From: Planctomycetota bacterium
GTDB taxonomy: Bacteria > Planctomycetota > Phycisphaerae > Phycisphaerales > SM1A02
Length of the DNA: 64,000 nt
Direction: 5' to 3'
Assembly: GCA_022574595.1 (NCBI GenBank)
Contig: JACZRS010000003.1
Span: forward strand, 1-64,000
Shown piece by piece: positions 141 through 17,483 of this stretch. Under the pieces are notes generated by a model that saw only the letters and a program-made list of their open reading frames with translations, did not search any database and had not been told where the DNA came from. The translations under genes and the position numbers were made by a program. Position 1 is the first letter of the stretch. Every line of letters begins with the position of its first letter.

Positions 141-604
141 GGGGGAAGGGAACAGACAGGCTCAACCCTGACAACCAGTCAGAAGAGCCTTGTGGCAGGA
201 AAGGCCTCCGGCCCGGGCAAGGACCGGAGACGTACGGAATGATGGCGAGGGCATCTTGGCCCAGTGCCGCCCATCGGTCGCGACCAACGGGCCTCTTCGC
301 CGCGCTGACGGCTTGCCGCGCTCATTCGTCCCGTGTCCTCCCTGACCAGACGGGACGTTGATCGGAAACTGACCGGGCCGCCGTGGCAGATCGGGCCGAA
401 AACGCCGGCACAACGTCTGGTGCGTTGATGGGTTGCCGACATTGCGGTCCGATCCTGACCGAACGGCCGGTCCATGGGGAGTACGGCTCGACTCCGTCCT
501 TCGGCCAAGCTTCCGTGCTTGGCCGGCCGGCTCCCACCGTCGTATGTGCGCGTGGTCCTGAGTACACCCGGGGCGGGCACCGGCCGCAGATCGTCGTGCC
601 CCGT
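141..604 (-). other. Gene-poor, hairpin-rich stretch between mraZ and terminator
   Basis: No convincing protein is seen here. Several frames stay open because of high GC, but their translations are Arg/Pro-rich with no recognisable motif. The stretch contains strong hairpins: 503-510 with 517-524 (GGCCAAGC/GCTTGGCC) and 327-334 with 350-357 (CGTCCCGT/ACGGGACG). Lying between mraZ and a minus-strand terminator, it could be a long 3' UTR or an undescribed structured RNA. I looked for RNase P, tmRNA and SRP RNA signature sequences and did not find them. The rsmH gene that usually follows mraZ is not here. Confidence 0.4.
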
Positions 605-1087
605 TCATGAACCCGGATCGCGCTCGGGCCGCGGCTGCTCGATGAGGGCTTGCCGTGCGCGGTGAAAGATCGTGGGTTTCTCGGTCAGCTTCTCCTGCCG
701 TCTTCGCTCCCATTGCCCCGGGTCCCGCAGCTCCAAATGGTCGCGCATACCCAGGATGACGACCTTGGATCCGATCCCCGCTGCGTCGAGCATCGCCTGG
801 GGCAGCCGCACCCGACCGGTCTTGTCCATCTCCAGCCGCCGGGCGCTGGGGAAGGTGATCTCGTCGAACGCCATCATCTCCTCGGCCGGCAGCAGTGAGA
901 CCTCGATCGCCCCGGCCATGCGCTCGAACGTCCGCTCCGGCCAAAGCCACAGTGCATCGTTGGGGCCGGCTGTGACGTAGAACGCCAGCCCGTCTCGTTC
1001 GGGGTGAAGGCGCGAGCGAATCTCGGCGGGGATCGCCAGTCGCTGCTTCGCGTCGATCGTATACTCGTATTCGCCTGTAAACAGCAC
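605..1087 (-). CDS. mraZ: Transcriptional regulator MraZ
   Basis: This 160-aa protein has the two SpoVT/AbrB-like DNA-binding repeats typical of MraZ, the conserved regulator at the head of the division and cell wall (dcw) cluster. The first repeat runs from the N-terminus (TIDAKQRLAIP at about residues 10-20) and the second is around residues 83-120 (EMDKTGRVRLP). Length fits the family (about 140-160 aa). The start is GTG at 1087, with a GAGG/AGGAA stretch at 1100-1091 as ribosome binding site. Upstream lies a 10-bp-phased GTGG repeat array, the expected autoregulatory operator. Unusually, rsmH, ftsL and ftsI do not follow on the minus strand; a terminator-like hairpin closes the transcript instead. 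Confidence 0.95.
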   Translation of the reverse strand: MLFTGEYEYTIDAKQRLAIPAEIRSRLHPERDGLAFYVTAGPNDALWLWPERTFERMAGAIEVSLLPAEEMMAFDEITFPSARRLEMDKTGRVRLPQAMLDAAGIGSKVVILGMRDHLELRDPGQWERRRQEKLTEKPTIFHRARQALIEQPRPERDPGS

Positions 1088-1405
1088 GCATTCCTGCCTC
1101 GGCTAGGTGGTGGCACAACTTAACCCACCGCTCGCCACTTTGCAACACCCTTCACCACTTTTCCTCATAATCCGGTCAAGTCACACCCTCACCACCGGCC
1201 CGGAGCGCACGGTAAGTCACAGCCACAGCGTTGGTTGAGCCAACTCACCCCCGCGAAAAAAAACTGCTCGCGCCAGCCGGAACGCAGATAATGGTTGCCC
1301 GCCGCCGAGCCGATCAAACTTCTGACCGATCCCGCTGGACCGGACGCTCATGATTCGCGCACTGGCGTCAGACCCGGCGGGCCATCACCAGGCAGGGTAG
1401 ACTAG
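1088..1405. other. Intergenic region carrying the mraZ operator
   Basis: This 318-bp gap separates the divergent mraZ and flavin reductase genes. It contains the phased MraZ boxes (listed separately). Beyond those I see only short A-rich sequence near 1256-1263 and no ORF worth calling. A TTGACC at 1179-1174 on the minus strand could belong to a promoter, but no good -10 lies at the right distance. Confidence 0.5.
1117..1158 (-). promoter_or_regulatory. MraZ-binding operator: four 10-bp-phased GTGG boxes
   Basis: Read on the minus strand, GTGG, GTGT, GTGG, GTGG occur exactly every 10 bp, starting at 1158, 1148, 1138 and 1128, with a weaker TTGT in the same phase at 1118. MraZ in other bacteria binds direct repeats of a short TGG-containing box separated by 5 nt, so the ring-shaped oligomer reads one face of the helix. 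The array ends about 30 bp before the GTG start of mraZ. Confidence 0.8.
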
Positions 1406-1879
1406 ATGATTGGCGAGCTTCCCCGAGCACTTGGCCAGATTCCCTCCGGCCTGTTCCTGCTGACGACGAGCTACGACGGCCACCGCAGCGGCGTTCTCGT
1501 CAAGTGGGTTCAGCAATGCGCGGTCCGGCCACCCATGGTGATCGTGGCCATGAGCAAGGGACTGCCCGTCGAGCCACTGATACGCGACAGCCGAAGCTTC
1601 GCCCTGTGTCAGATCGCCCAGGATGACCGGTTTTTGCAGCGGAAGTTTGCGACGCCACCCGACGCGCTCGAGGACCCCTTCGTCACCCTCCCCACGATGA
1701 CCGCCCTCAGCGGCGCTCCCATCGTCAAGCGAGCGGTCGCGTATCTGGATTGCGAACTGGTCCGCCACATCGACCTGGAGACGGATCATGCCTTGTACGT
1801 CGGCCGAGTCCGCCAGGGCGGCGTGCTCAACGAAGGGCAACCGGCCGTGTTCTTGCGCGACAGCGATCTGGTCGCATGA
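1406..1879 (+). CDS. Flavin reductase-like domain protein
   Basis: The 157-aa product resembles the flavin reductase-like FMN-binding split-barrel family: an N-terminal IPSGLFLLTTSYDGHRSGVL stretch (about residues 12-31), the PPMVIVAMSKG strand that normally contacts FMN (about 42-52), a FALCQIAQDD segment (about 65-74), and a C-terminal segment with the usual DHALYVGRV strand (about 126-134). Such proteins bind FMN, reducing it or using it as cofactor with NAD(P)H; the substrate cannot be told. It stands alone between divergent mraZ and the convergent glycosyltransferase. The ATG at 1406 has only a weak ribosome binding site. Confidence 0.8.
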   Translation: MIGELPRALGQIPSGLFLLTTSYDGHRSGVLVKWVQQCAVRPPMVIVAMSKGLPVEPLIRDSRSFALCQIAQDDRFLQRKFATPPDALEDPFVTLPTMTALSGAPIVKRAVAYLDCELVRHIDLETDHALYVGRVRQGGVLNEGQPAVFLRDSDLVA

Positions 1880-1897
1880 ACGACACGAGCCGGCCTA

Positions 1898-3007
1898 TTA
1901 GCCCACCAGGCTGTTCACCACCCGGCTGATCGCCTCGTCAAACGCCCGCTCAGTGAAGCGCTCGGCGTTTCGGCGACACTGCACGGGATCGATGTGGGCC
2001 TGATCCAAAGCCGCGATCGCCTCGACCAGCGCCTCCACCATATGTTGCCTAAAGAAAACCCCGGTCTGCGGCGTCACCGTCTCCATGGCACCGCCGCCGG
2101 CAAACGCGATCACGGGGCATCCCGTCGCTTGGGCCTCAACTGGGATAAGCCCGAAGTCCTCGACTTGTGGAAACACCAGCGCCTTGGCCCGCCGGTACAG
2201 CTCACGCAGCGTCACGTCGTCCACGCGACCCAGCATCTCAACGGTCGGCCCCGCCGCGGCGGCCAAAGCCTTTCGCTGTGATCCGTCTCCGGCAACTTTC
2301 AACTTCAACCCAGCGTGGGAAGCGGCCCGCACGACCAGCTCGGTCCGCTTGTACGGTTCCAACGCCGATACCACCAGCAGCCAGTCCTCCCGTTGAACCC
2401 GCCGATCAGCGGTGAACCAATCCGTTCGCACCGGCGGATAGACGACCTGCGCCTCTCGGCCGAAGTACCGCTGGATTCGCCCGGCCGTGTGCTGGCTGTT
2501 GGCCAGGAACATCGTCACGCGATCAGCCGTCGCACGGTCCCAGCGTCGAAAGACCGGCCCGATCAGCCCAAGGCCCATTCCGCGCCAGCGGCCGCCTGAC
2601 CCCGTGGCGTACGCCTGAGTCTGAGCCCAGATGTACCGAGCCGGCGAATGGCAATAGCACAGGTGCGGCGTGCCCTTGGGGGGGCGAATCGACTTCATCA
2701 CGGCGGAGCTGGTCGAGATGAGCAAGTCGCACGGCGCGACCTTGAGCCGACCGACGGCCCACGGCATCAATGGCAAGTACTGACGCCGAAGCCGACCCGA
2801 CGCCCCGGGAAACCGTTGCAGCGGCGACGTAATGACGCGGCAAGCCGAGATGGCCTCGGTGAGCGGCCGGCCGTTGCTGACCAAGGTGTACAGCTCGCTC
2901 GGGCCGAACTGCCGCGCCAGCCGATCGAGCACGAACTCACCGCCGCGCATGCCGACCAGCCAGTCGTGAGCCAGTACGATCCTCGGCTTGGATTGGTCGT
3001 GTATCAT
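1898..3007 (-). CDS. Glycosyltransferase family 4 (GT-B fold)
   Basis: This 369-aa protein is a retaining GT4-type enzyme, most like mannosyl/galactosyltransferases of surface polysaccharide synthesis (WbaZ-like). The N-terminal acceptor domain starts with IVLAHDWLVGMRGGE (residues 10-24), a CHSPARYIW motif lies near 119-127, and the C-terminal nucleotide-sugar domain has VSALEPYKRTE (about 213-223), GDGSQRK, and the E-x7-E signature EDFGLIPVE at 283-291 followed by CPVIAFAGGG. Donor and acceptor sugars are unknown. It starts only 6 bp from the divergent amidohydrolase start at 3014, so the two must have overlapping promoter regions, or one start is further inside. Confidence 0.9.
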   Translation of the reverse strand: MIHDQSKPRIVLAHDWLVGMRGGEFVLDRLARQFGPSELYTLVSNGRPLTEAISACRVITSPLQRFPGASGRLRRQYLPLMPWAVGRLKVAPCDLLISTSSAVMKSIRPPKGTPHLCYCHSPARYIWAQTQAYATGSGGRWRGMGLGLIGPVFRRWDRATADRVTMFLANSQHTAGRIQRYFGREAQVVYPPVRTDWFTADRRVQREDWLLVVSALEPYKRTELVVRAASHAGLKLKVAGDGSQRKALAAAAGPTVEMLGRVDDVTLRELYRRAKALVFPQVEDFGLIPVEAQATGCPVIAFAGGGAMETVTPQTGVFFRQHMVEALVEAIAALDQAHIDPVQCRRNAERFTERAFDEAISRVVNSLVG

Positions 3008-3013
3008 CCGCCG

Positions 3014-4135
3014 ATGTCATCGCCGCCGCCAAAGACCGCAGACACTGGAATCGCAGCGCATCCGGCCAACCGCCTTGGATTGGACTACGCCGCCCAAGCC
3101 CGCTGCCTTGGCGACCCGACAGCCCCGATCATAGACGTTCACAGCCACATCAACGGCCAAACCGCGCCTGAGATCTACCGTCGCGTGGCCGACCTGTACG
3201 GCGTCAGCCTCACCTACTCCATGACCCAGTTGGAGGAGGTCGAGGCCGTCCGCGAGATCCTCGGCCGGCGGGTGCGGTTCATCGCCGTGCCCAACTACAC
3301 CGGCGAGGACCGCAAGCACCACCACGGTTTGGGGTTCGAAGAGCGCATCAGACGCTTCCATGAACTGGGGGTGCGGATCGTCAAGTTCTGGGCCGCCCCG
3401 CGCGGTATCGACTTCGGTCGAGAGATCGGCGAGCCGGACCTGTTGCGGTTGGATGGATCGACCCGGCTGAAGACAATGGAGCTGGCGGCGGACCTCGGCA
3501 TGATCTTCATGACGCACATTGCCGATCCCGATACGTGGTTCGCCGCCAAATACGCCGACGCCTCCGTGTATGGGACAAAGGCGCAGCAGTATGAGCCGTT
3601 CGAGGAGCTGTTGGATCGCTTTACCGTGCCGTGGATCGCCGCGCACATGGGCGGTTGGCCCGAGGATCTCGAGTTCCTGTCCGGATTGCTGTCGCGGCAC
3701 GACAATCTCTACCTCGACACCAGCGCTGCGAAGTGGATGGTCCGCGAGCTTAGTAAACACAGCCGCGATGATCTCGTCGCGTTCCTTCGGCGATGGCAGG
3801 GCCGCATCATGTTCGGCTCAGACATCGTGACCTCCGACGAACATATCAAGGCGGGTGAAAAGGAAAACGAACTCCACACTCGCGCCAACTCGGCCGACGA
3901 GGCGTTCGACTTGTACGCCAGCCGGTACTGGGTCTTTCGCACGCTCTTCGAGACGGACTACGACGGCGAGTCACCGATCGCTGACCCCGACTTAGCGATG
4001 GTCGATCCTGATCGATATGACGAGATGGACGCCCCGCAACTCGTGGGCAAATCCGTTCCGCCGGATCTCCTGCGCAGCCTCTACCATGACGCAGCCCACG
4101 ATCTCCTCGAACCGCTGCATCGTGACGAGTGCTGA
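3014..4135 (+). CDS. Amidohydrolase-family metal-dependent hydrolase
   Basis: The 373-aa product belongs to the amidohydrolase (TIM-barrel, Amidohydro_2-like) group. Metal-ligand motifs are visible: DVHSH at 41-45, H168 in MTHIAD, H211 in AAHMGG, and D270 in FGSD. The protein ends with a PPDLLRSLYHDAAHDLL helix, typical of this family. The frame stays open upstream to 2648, but the upstream part overlaps the glycosyltransferase and reads as nonsense, so the ATG at 3014 is chosen. Substrate unknown. The last 13 codons plus downstream DNA are duplicated at 4731-4810. Confidence 0.85.
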   Translation: MSSPPPKTADTGIAAHPANRLGLDYAAQARCLGDPTAPIIDVHSHINGQTAPEIYRRVADLYGVSLTYSMTQLEEVEAVREILGRRVRFIAVPNYTGEDRKHHHGLGFEERIRRFHELGVRIVKFWAAPRGIDFGREIGEPDLLRLDGSTRLKTMELAADLGMIFMTHIADPDTWFAAKYADASVYGTKAQQYEPFEELLDRFTVPWIAAHMGGWPEDLEFLSGLLSRHDNLYLDTSAAKWMVRELSKHSRDDLVAFLRRWQGRIMFGSDIVTSDEHIKAGEKENELHTRANSADEAFDLYASRYWVFRTLFETDYDGESPIADPDLAMVDPDRYDEMDAPQLVGKSVPPDLLRSLYHDAAHDLLEPLHRDEC

Positions 4136-15929: not shown

Positions 15930-16346
15930 CTACTTACCTTGCGCGTTGCTGATAATGCTGTAGAGGTACCACCGCTGCTTCGTCACCCGCCCCGAGGCCC
16001 CCCGTGGGGCGTGCCGCTGGATGTATAGCTTCGCTCGTTGACCGGTATCCAGCCGCACGATGAACACCTGCCGGCGTAGGTATCGCTCGCCGCCAGGCTT
16101 CCCCCCTTCCGGGGCTGACTCCTTGAAATGGTCCAGACATTCGACCACCTCGTACCGCCGGCCACGCCAGGTGAACGCGCCGGGCGACGCCGCCAGACCA
16201 CGGGCCATAAGTTCCGTCGAAAACGACCCCGGCTCCGGCTCGATCGGCTCGGAGATGAACTCTTCCTCCCCGTTGGTGAGCTTCTGGTCATTCCGATCGA
16301 TTGCGGCGGCCATCAGCTTATTGTCGCCAATGCCAGCGACAACCAC
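15930..16346 (-). CDS. DUF6504-like protein, possibly truncated at its N-terminus
   Basis: The open frame gives 138 aa; an internal ATG at 16313 would give 127 aa. The body FTWRGRRYEVVECLDHFKES...GGERYLRRQVFIVRLDTG..AKLYIQR.....RWYLYSI matches what I know of DUF6504, a small beta-rich domain often found alone or at the C-terminus of Y-family polymerase-like ImuB proteins. The first residues, VVAGIGDNKLMAAA, look like the GIxxNKLxAK motif of Y-family polymerases, and the frame ends just at the MITE-like element (16353), so the gene may be a remnant of a larger protein. This last idea is weak. Confidence 0.6.
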   Translation of the reverse strand: MVVAGIGDNKLMAAAIDRNDQKLTNGEEEFISEPIEPEPGSFSTELMARGLAASPGAFTWRGRRYEVVECLDHFKESAPEGGKPGGERYLRRQVFIVRLDTGQRAKLYIQRHAPRGASGRVTKQRWYLYSIISNAQGK

Positions 16347-16352
16347 AATCCA

Positions 16353-16477
16353 CTAGGCTCTGTCTGATGGATAGTGGGACGGGCATCTTGCCCGTCTGCA
16401 ACAGTGAAACGGACGGGCTGGAAGCCCGTTCCACCAACCGATCAGCGCAACCTGCTGATCCATCAGACAGAACCTAG
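16353..16477. mobile_element. MITE-like element, 125 bp with 20-bp terminal inverted repeats
   Basis: The terminal repeats 16353-16372 and 16458-16477 are complementary over 20 bp with one mismatch (CTAGGCTCTGTCTGATGGAT on the left). Two further hairpins sit inside: GACGGGC/GCCCGTC at 16378-16396 and AACGGGC-type arms at about 16411-16432. There is no coding capacity. The CTAG ends could be part of the repeat or a 4-bp target duplication. It separates the divergent DUF6504 and dipeptidase genes, ending 10 bp before the dipeptidase start. Confidence 0.7.
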
Positions 16478-16487
16478 GCTTGCCCCC

Positions 16488-17483
16488 ATGCCGTGGATCG
16501 ACGCACATCTTGACCTGGCGTACATGGCCTTGGATGGCCGCGACCTGCGCACACCGTGCGAGAACCCTGATCAGGCGTGTATCAGTCTCCCCGCTCTGCG
16601 ACAAGCCGGCGTCGATCTCGTCTTCGCCACGATCTTCTCTGCCCCGGGAGAAATCCCCGAGGCCGACGCCGAGGGGTGGGACCATCCCTGCCGGTATCCA
16701 TCCAGTGATGATTTGGACGCCGCCGAGCAGGCCGGTCTTTGTCAGATCGAGCTGTACCGGCAATTGGAGGAAGCCGGCGAGTTGAGCATCGTCCGGGGAC
16801 GAGCTGATCTTGAGCGCGACGCGGCTTTACCCAAGATCGTGCTATTGATGGAGGGAGCTGATCCCATTCGATCACCTCAACATGCCCAGCAGTGGTACGA
16901 CTACGGTTTGCGTTTGGTGGGGTTGACCTGGTCGATGGGTACGCGCTATGCCGGAGGGAACGCCAAGCCCGGGCCGTTGACGGCACAAGGGATCGAACTC
17001 GTCGCCGCGCTCGATGACTTGGGCATCATTCATGACGCCTCGCACCTGGCCGATGAAGCCTTGGATGGGCTGTTGGAACACGCGCGCGGTCCCGTCGTCG
17101 CCACGCACTCGAATTGCCGAGCCATCACCGGCGACAACCAACGCCATCTGCGCGATGCTCACATCAAAGCGATCGGCGACCGCGGCGGCGTCATCGGCCT
17201 GAATCTGTTCTCCAAGTTCCTCGTCCCCGATGGCCGAGCGACCATCGACGATTGCGTCGCTCACGTCCAGCATGTGTGTGAGTTGATGGGACATCGCAAT
17301 GGTGTGGGACTGGGCTCCGATGCCGATGGCGGTTTCCCAGCGAACGCCCTACCGGTCGATCTGGATCACCCCCGCAAGTACGGCGCATTGCTCGAAACCC
17401 TGCGCGTCCAAGGCTGGTCGGACGACGACCTCCAAGGTTTTACCTGGGGGAATTGGATGGGCATGCTGCAACGAACGGTCTAG
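16488..17483 (+). CDS. Membrane dipeptidase, peptidase family M19
   Basis: The 331-aa product has the zinc-ligand set of renal-dipeptidase-like enzymes: H7 and D9 in DAHLDL, E122 in LMEGAD, H182/H186 in IHDASH, H207 in ATHSN and D278 in GSDADGG. These enzymes hydrolyse dipeptides, including D-amino acid-containing ones, with a binuclear zinc centre. No signal peptide is seen, so it is probably cytoplasmic. The frame is open upstream to 16374 but that part is translated MITE sequence; ATG 16488 gives the expected family start. No Shine-Dalgarno is visible; the MITE arm ends 10 bp upstream. Confidence 0.92.
   Translation: MPWIDAHLDLAYMALDGRDLRTPCENPDQACISLPALRQAGVDLVFATIFSAPGEIPEADAEGWDHPCRYPSSDDLDAAEQAGLCQIELYRQLEEAGELSIVRGRADLERDAALPKIVLLMEGADPIRSPQHAQQWYDYGLRLVGLTWSMGTRYAGGNAKPGPLTAQGIELVAALDDLGIIHDASHLADEALDGLLEHARGPVVATHSNCRAITGDNQRHLRDAHIKAIGDRGGVIGLNLFSKFLVPDGRATIDDCVAHVQHVCELMGHRNGVGLGSDADGGFPANALPVDLDHPRKYGALLETLRVQGWSDDDLQGFTWGNWMGMLQRTV

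Follow-up and report, generated by a model that had tools for sequence, protein, structure and literature searches.

A 125-bp MITE-like element with a REP-doublet core and ends matching IS5-family ISs in a planctomycete genome

Introduction

A short inverted-repeat sequence of 125 bp lies between two divergent genes, encoding an M19 dipeptidase and a DUF6504 protein, in a 64-kb stretch of planctomycete DNA (64,000 nucleotides of contig JACZRS010000003.1; hereafter the window). Is this sequence a mobile element and, if so, which enzyme moved it and from where did it come? Two kinds of small mobile repeat bear on the question. Type II MITEs, as described in the cited part of PMC10969869, are non-coding elements of less than 500 bp possessing terminal inverted repeats (TIRs) and a short target duplication, whose likeness to an autonomous element is restricted to the TIRs. 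REP doublets constitute the second kind, and the mechanism by which REPINs disseminate is called unresolved in the cited part of the 2011 REPIN paper (PMC3116915).

Structure and setting of the element

The first-pass annotation had described an element at 16353-16477 with 20-bp ends matching at 19 of 20 positions, and an inverted-repeat search returned exactly these coordinates, the ends being 95% complementary and 85 nt apart. They constitute the sole 20-bp inverted repeat with up to one mismatch and a spacing of 60-160 bp within the window, and five mononucleotide shuffles of the window yielded no comparable inverted repeats. The same search returned an inner hairpin (GACGGGCA/TGCCCGTC); a second (ACGGGCT/AGCCCGT), whose 7-bp arms fall below the length limit of the search, was read from the sequence. 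As DNA, the element folds at -40.5 kcal/mol, against a mean of -16.55 kcal/mol for 200 dinucleotide shuffles (z -8.29).

Mechanically listed ORFs run across the element, and the open frame of the dipeptidase extends upstream as far as a GTG at 16374, within it. The ORF list over the 125 bp nonetheless contains no credible gene of the element's own, and the annotation was thus correct regarding both the two hairpins and the lack of coding sequence. It was also correct regarding the neighbours (Pfam PF01244 and PF20114): 10 bases separate the end of the element (16477) from the dipeptidase ATG (16488), and the DUF6504 ORF on the minus strand starts (16346) 6 bases from the left end. The further suggestion that the element had truncated a neighbour does not hold. 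The DUF6504 and M19 matches span profile positions 3-101 of 103 and 7-318 of 319, respectively, and residues 1-136 of the DUF6504 protein align at 87.5% in G140, a genome of the related genus g37 that lacks this element.

Table 1. Positions of the element, its parts and its neighbours in the window, together with complete ISs sharing its ends and the places of a 27-bp insert.
Feature	Position	Strand	Basis or remark
Left terminal inverted repeat (CTAGGCTCTGTCTGATGGAT), with probable host C and TA duplication	16353..16372	.	Inverted-repeat search; complete ISs with nearly the same ends
Probable 2-bp target-site duplication (TA), left copy	16354..16355	.	Base variation over 46 elements; empty sites
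Element proper, 119 bp, if TA is the duplication	16356..16474	.	Probable extent
First REP hairpin of the core (GTGGGACGGGCATCTTGCCCGTC)	16374..16396	+	Inverted-repeat and REP pattern searches
Second REP hairpin of the core, inverted relative to the first (GTGGAACGGGCTTCCAGCCCGTCC on the minus strand)	16411..16434	-	REP pattern search
Right arm, of the kind seen in MITE subfamily A (reverse strand CAGCAGGTTGCGCTGATCGGTTG)	16435..16457	.	Copy comparison; tree
Right terminal inverted repeat (reverse strand CTAGGTTCTGTCTGATGGAT), with probable TA duplication and host G	16458..16477	.	Inverted-repeat search
Right copy of the probable TA duplication	16475..16476	.	Base variation over 46 elements; empty sites
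DUF6504 gene, neighbour, domain intact	15930..16346	-	ORF list; Pfam
M19 dipeptidase gene, neighbour, domain intact	16488..17483	+	ORF list; Pfam
Complete IS, L032/L116	G041, 951-952 bp		Cut at the contig's first base
Complete IS, L329	G063, 959 bp		
Complete ISs, L330-L333	G409, 934-950 bp		
Complete ISs, L334 and L335	G262, 932 bp		
Complete IS, L340	G544, 959 bp		
27-bp insert	L236 461-487; L253 1558-1584; L091 5744; L094 1682; nine more		

Copies in related genomes

The genome to which the window belongs (G000; 4.09 Mb in 31 contigs, 96% complete) contains the element as a single copy, and the TIR occurs at up to three mismatches only here. Counting copies by their ends, as the first-pass annotation had envisaged, therefore gives one in the element's own genome and many in its relatives. 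Among 101 genomes, G036, which belongs to g37 and thus to another genus, was found to contain at least eight full-length or near-full-length copies with the same ends and 91-98% identity, and 47 TIR ends at up to three mismatches. More widely, the TIR was detected at up to three mismatches in 49 of 181 family genomes (the reversed control gave 4 hits in all) and at up to one mismatch in 25 of 397 class genomes (reversed control, 2).

Forty-six distinct complete elements were read: that of the window, 32 from the g37 genomes in the comparison (17 in G036, 6 in G139 and 9 in G140) and 13 from five genomes of other genera. Repeat fetches of single copies, partial copies (L097, L104, L107, L109 and L110) and pairs with up to five mismatches that link a genuine end with a remote position (L082, 1304 bp; L085, 662 bp) were left out of this number. 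A full copy of the g37 type is also present in L147 (JADFOM010000201.1), from a MAG labelled Acidobacteria, reflecting either transfer across phyla or mis-binning.

Insertion sites and the target duplication

The flanks of 22 copies were joined and searched for in 17 genomes, with 17 candidates scored in each genome, and 20 places were fetched; the resulting counts of empty sites are lower bounds. Uninterrupted counterparts, for which the first-pass annotation had advised looking, were read for at least 11 of these 22 chosen family sites (at least 10 of the 15 in g37 and at least 1 of the 7 others). That annotation had also named a single genomic copy together with the want of any empty site as grounds for abandoning the MITE reading: the former was found in G000, the latter was not. 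At L080, a single CTAG is present at the empty counterpart in both G139 and G140. Small gaps lie beside the junction in two counterparts (that of L085 and one of the two for L090), and the places fetched for L098 and L102 match one flank only.

Within the two CTAG motifs, the inner bases hardly vary (44/46 and 46/46 copies) whereas the outer bases vary more (commonest base in 40/46 and 41/46), in a search whose own pattern favours CTAG at all four places; identical 4-mers occur on both sides in 28 of the 46. Because of this difference between inner and outer bases, and because the empty CTAA of L079 reads CTAG...CTAA when filled, a duplication of TA within CTAG probably fits better than one of the 4-bp CTAG, although at some empty sites (e.g. 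L026 and L089) a point change must be assumed under either model. The outermost C and G would then probably be host DNA, leaving an element proper of approximately 16356-16474. CTAG is itself somewhat rare in the window (96 occurrences against 132 expected).

At the window's own locus, G140 possesses the same gene pair (dipeptidase 88% and DUF6504 87.5% identical) and the same junction (ATCCACTA / CTAGGCTTGCC), which is occupied there by a different inverted-repeat element (L161, about 1092-1284). The gene pair lacks the window's element in nine relatives, and an exact empty version of the site was read in none of them: G140 is occupied and the other eight are too diverged for alignment between the genes. 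The filling of the same CTAG-type site by different inverted-repeat elements in related genomes was seen twice (L161 and the window; L236 and L020).

Might the element be retained for the sake of its neighbours, as a promoter, attenuator or insulator serving the dipeptidase and DUF6504 genes? It is very foldable and lies in their shared upstream region, 10 bp before the dipeptidase ATG, and the first-pass annotation had proposed that it supplies promoters. However, simple scans of a kind that planctomycete promoters may not fit found neither a sigma-70-like promoter (0) nor a terminator-like site (0) within it, and Rfam gave a single match, attributable to chance and scoring far below the gathering threshold. 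Furthermore, the element is missing from the same gene pair in the nine relatives, one of which contains an unrelated insert, and the copies occupy unrelated sites, since the flanks of the window's copy have no similarity to those of any other copy read. A cis-regulatory or structural role is thus very unlikely, and we find no indication of a host function for the element.

IS5-family ISs with the same ends

Nine complete ISs of 932-959 bp, from five genomes, were found to be bounded on either side by these TIRs, each end having 0-3 mismatches (Table 1). One of them, L332, encodes its transposase in a single whole frame that scores 294 bits against NF033580 (NCBIfam IS5_3; cut-off 110) and matches PF13340 (DUF4096) and PF01609 (DDE_Tnp_1). 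The frames of the G041 copy (L032) are broken and the pieces match the same two Pfam families; these two ISs were assigned to a transposase family by HMM and the other seven by eye. Tc1/IS630-type elements also duplicate TA. An element of that type was considered and rejected, as the L332 transposase scores as IS5 family.

Alignment of the window element with the ISs gave long matches at the ends (13-22 bp) and one further match of 10 bp, at chance level. Because the likeness is confined to the terminal repeats, the element falls into type II. The expectation in the first-pass annotation of a transposase with the same ends was thus borne out in five other genomes and not in G000, where no match to a PF13340 transposase was found in the assembly. 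Ten PF13340 loci from three g37 genomes, several of them cut by contig ends, included none with this TIR within 4 of 19 positions; the IS in L118 has paired ends that differ by 6. The matching ISs sit in other genera, and we therefore infer the enzyme that moved the g37 copies.

With its many copies in relatives, nearly identical ends on ISs and existing empty sites, the element deserves the description MITE-like given to it at first pass. We consider it very probable that it is a type II MITE, built around a REP doublet, moved in trans by an IS5-family transposase to a CTAG target and derived recently from a g37-like source. In this mechanism, an IS with nearly the same ends as the non-coding element would supply a DDE transposase (IS5_3 type, DUF4096 and DDE_Tnp_1), whose presumed catalysis in trans would insert the element at a CTAG in the space separating the DUF6504 gene from the divergent M19 dipeptidase gene, most likely duplicating TA. 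The interior is a REP doublet of a kind that recurs across this genome and flanks a RAYT (Y1/HUH protein), such that one mobile repeat is nested in another.

Compared with the type II MITEs of IS5-family ISs in the cited part of PMC10969869, the window element is alike in size, lack of coding sequence, TIRs, short duplication and likeness restricted to the TIRs. It differs in that its interior is the REP doublet of a second mobile-repeat system, and in that the core variants of its family differ at orthologous sites.

The REP-doublet core

The first-pass annotation had recognised in the hairpins a style seen in planctomycete genomes, and they are indeed REP units. The core comprises two of them, inverted, tagged with the 5' tetranucleotide GTGG and repeated in the genome. 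With one mismatch allowed, the REP pattern GTGGNACGGGCNTNNNGCCCGTNC was matched 58 times in G000, 111 in G036, 30 in G139 and 40 in G140; matches occurred in 9 of 14 genomes, and the reversed control gave 0 in all 14. Eighteen short REP loci of G000, chosen mostly as pairs, are free-standing, and 16 have two inverted hairpins. By regular expression, the doublet was detected in 32 of the 33 elements of G000 and g37, the remaining one (L098) having a mutated half, and in 0 of the 13 elements of other genera.

These findings bear on the proposal that the element is a plain REP doublet (BIME or REPIN) moved by a RAYT, its outer repeats being part of an extended palindrome of REP type instead of the ends of an IS5-type element. 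Such a reading is in keeping with the core, with the abundance in G000 of other REP hairpins of this class and with the presence of Y1_Tnp genes in all 14 genomes tested (83 matches). It does not account for the outer ends, which are present in the 13 elements of other genera, all 13 of them lacking a REP core, and which also bound the nine complete IS5-type ISs at 0-3 mismatches; moreover, as the TIR is found in G000 at the element only, the other REPs of that genome lack it. We regard the proposal as largely refuted and highly improbable.

A type II MITE with a REP core has near precedents. In the cited part of PMC3733652, a REP dimer is regularly embedded in a longer palindrome in GTAG-15 of A. 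variabilis and CGTC-1 of H. neapolitanus, and no IS is linked there to the outer palindrome, whereas the outer repeats described here match ISs. Since REP dimers in longer palindromes are thus described in two genomes, a MITE with such a core represents a variant of kinds already known. With the REP doublets, BIMEs and REPINs that accompany RAYTs (PMC3116915 and PMC3733652, cited parts) the window doublet shares inverted hairpins, a 5' tetranucleotide (here GTGG), a short spacer and repetition in the genome, but it is carried inside IS5-type ends and so would be moved as cargo. Searches of literature titles, with most subscription journals outside their scope, returned none on a REP-cored MITE of planctomycetes. 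A single element here joins IS-driven MITEs and RAYT-linked REP doublets, with natural before-and-after sites.

Other MITE-like elements with different ends also possess a REP-doublet core (L097, 1714-1910; L012 and L022, near 1501; L013; L024), and by eye the ends of two such types match the IS5-like elements L122 and L123. A REP core may be a general feature of MITEs here.

Origin of the window's copy

The nearest copy (L009, at another site in G036) differs from the window element at 3 of 125 bases (98% identity), whereas the flanks of the window's locus are 86.5% and 88.5% identical to G140. Judged from these sequence differences, the element was probably acquired recently by transfer from a g37-like source, later than the separation of its host from g37. 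The core of the window's copy has the loop TTCCA, which is frequent in G036 and occurs once among the 58 listed hairpins of G000; this also points to such a source. In a tree given without support values, the window's copy groups with three from G036. Plasmids, phages and IMG/VR contained no match to the element, so no transfer vehicle was found among them. As no DUF4096 transposase was found in the assembly, the copy is probably immobile at present.

That a g37 fragment was instead mis-joined into this genome, through an assembly artefact or contamination, might be suspected from a single copy at 98% identity to one in another genus, but it is scarcely credible for an element inside a 254-kb contig whose flanks both lead to orthologues of one gene pair, stand at 86.5% and 88.5% rather than 98% to G140 and bear no similarity to the flanks of other copies.

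Change of the core at orthologous sites

Five orthologous pairs of elements had matching flanks on both sides; the core is the same in three and differs in two, namely L086 (125 bp, G036) against L094 (152 bp, G139), and L082 (125 bp) against L101 (221 bp), which has an added core unit carrying a 27-bp insert. This insert was found in none of the 17 elements of G036, 3 of the 6 of G139 and 6 of the 9 of G140. Allowing up to two changes, the insert (TCTCCATAGGCGACTCGCCGAGGCGAG) occupies the same point of the REP hairpin in 13 of 13 distinct occurrences, at loci chosen for MITEs and REPs, and its hosts are of three kinds, namely MITEs of subfamily A, MITEs of subfamily B and an element unrelated to them (L236 and L253). 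Orthologous copies with and without it offer a way to study the spread of REP cores. Separately, at three MITE copies (L088/L091, L084/L095 and L093/L103) the match between g37 genomes is confined to one flank, which would be expected if such copies act as recombination breakpoints.

Most of the change in the core would be accounted for by ordinary gene conversion among the repeats. A bolder reading, which we hold to be doubtful, is that of a mosaic maintained by two enzymes, in which an IS5-type DDE transposase moves the ends and a RAYT borne by valS rewrites the REP core through single-strand hairpin exchange. Such REP-specific exchange is itself conjectural; if true, it would explain both the change of core at orthologous sites and the identical hairpin position of the insert across the three kinds of element.

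RAYTs within valyl-tRNA synthetase

The study of the element also led to a RAYT within an essential tRNA synthetase gene. The minus strand of L343 (G000:C21:128200-132500) encodes, at 198-3983, a valyl-tRNA synthetase (ValRS) ORF of 1261 aa with a RAYT in frame; it is the only ORF listed in G000 above the TIGR00422 cut-off. The inserted protein is a Y1_Tnp (Y1/HUH) protein, its HUH and Tyr motifs being identified by eye. Searches of literature titles returned none on a RAYT within valyl-tRNA synthetase.

A stand-alone RAYT accompanied by this REP class was not seen among 14 loci (L270-L281, L298 and L301): 11 lack the hairpins, and the three that have them are valS-borne. No hairpins of the class were found near 10 other Y1_Tnp loci, 12 of the 83 Y1_Tnp matches having been examined as loci, and another partner RAYT for the class may exist.

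An in-frame RAYT is also present in the ValRS of G036, G140 and G023 (further loci are L344, L345, L301, L346 and L347). In G009 and G071 the corresponding position is taken by another type of Y1-like domain (NHVH, YVLHEQ), G031 contains a shorter insert that differs, and the insert is absent from the ValRS of G139, G044, G003, G022, G028, G041, G059 and G030. REP hairpins, absent at 9 of 9 other ValRS loci and flanking 0 of 2 inserts of the other Y1-like type, flank the insert in 4 of 4 valS-borne RAYTs.
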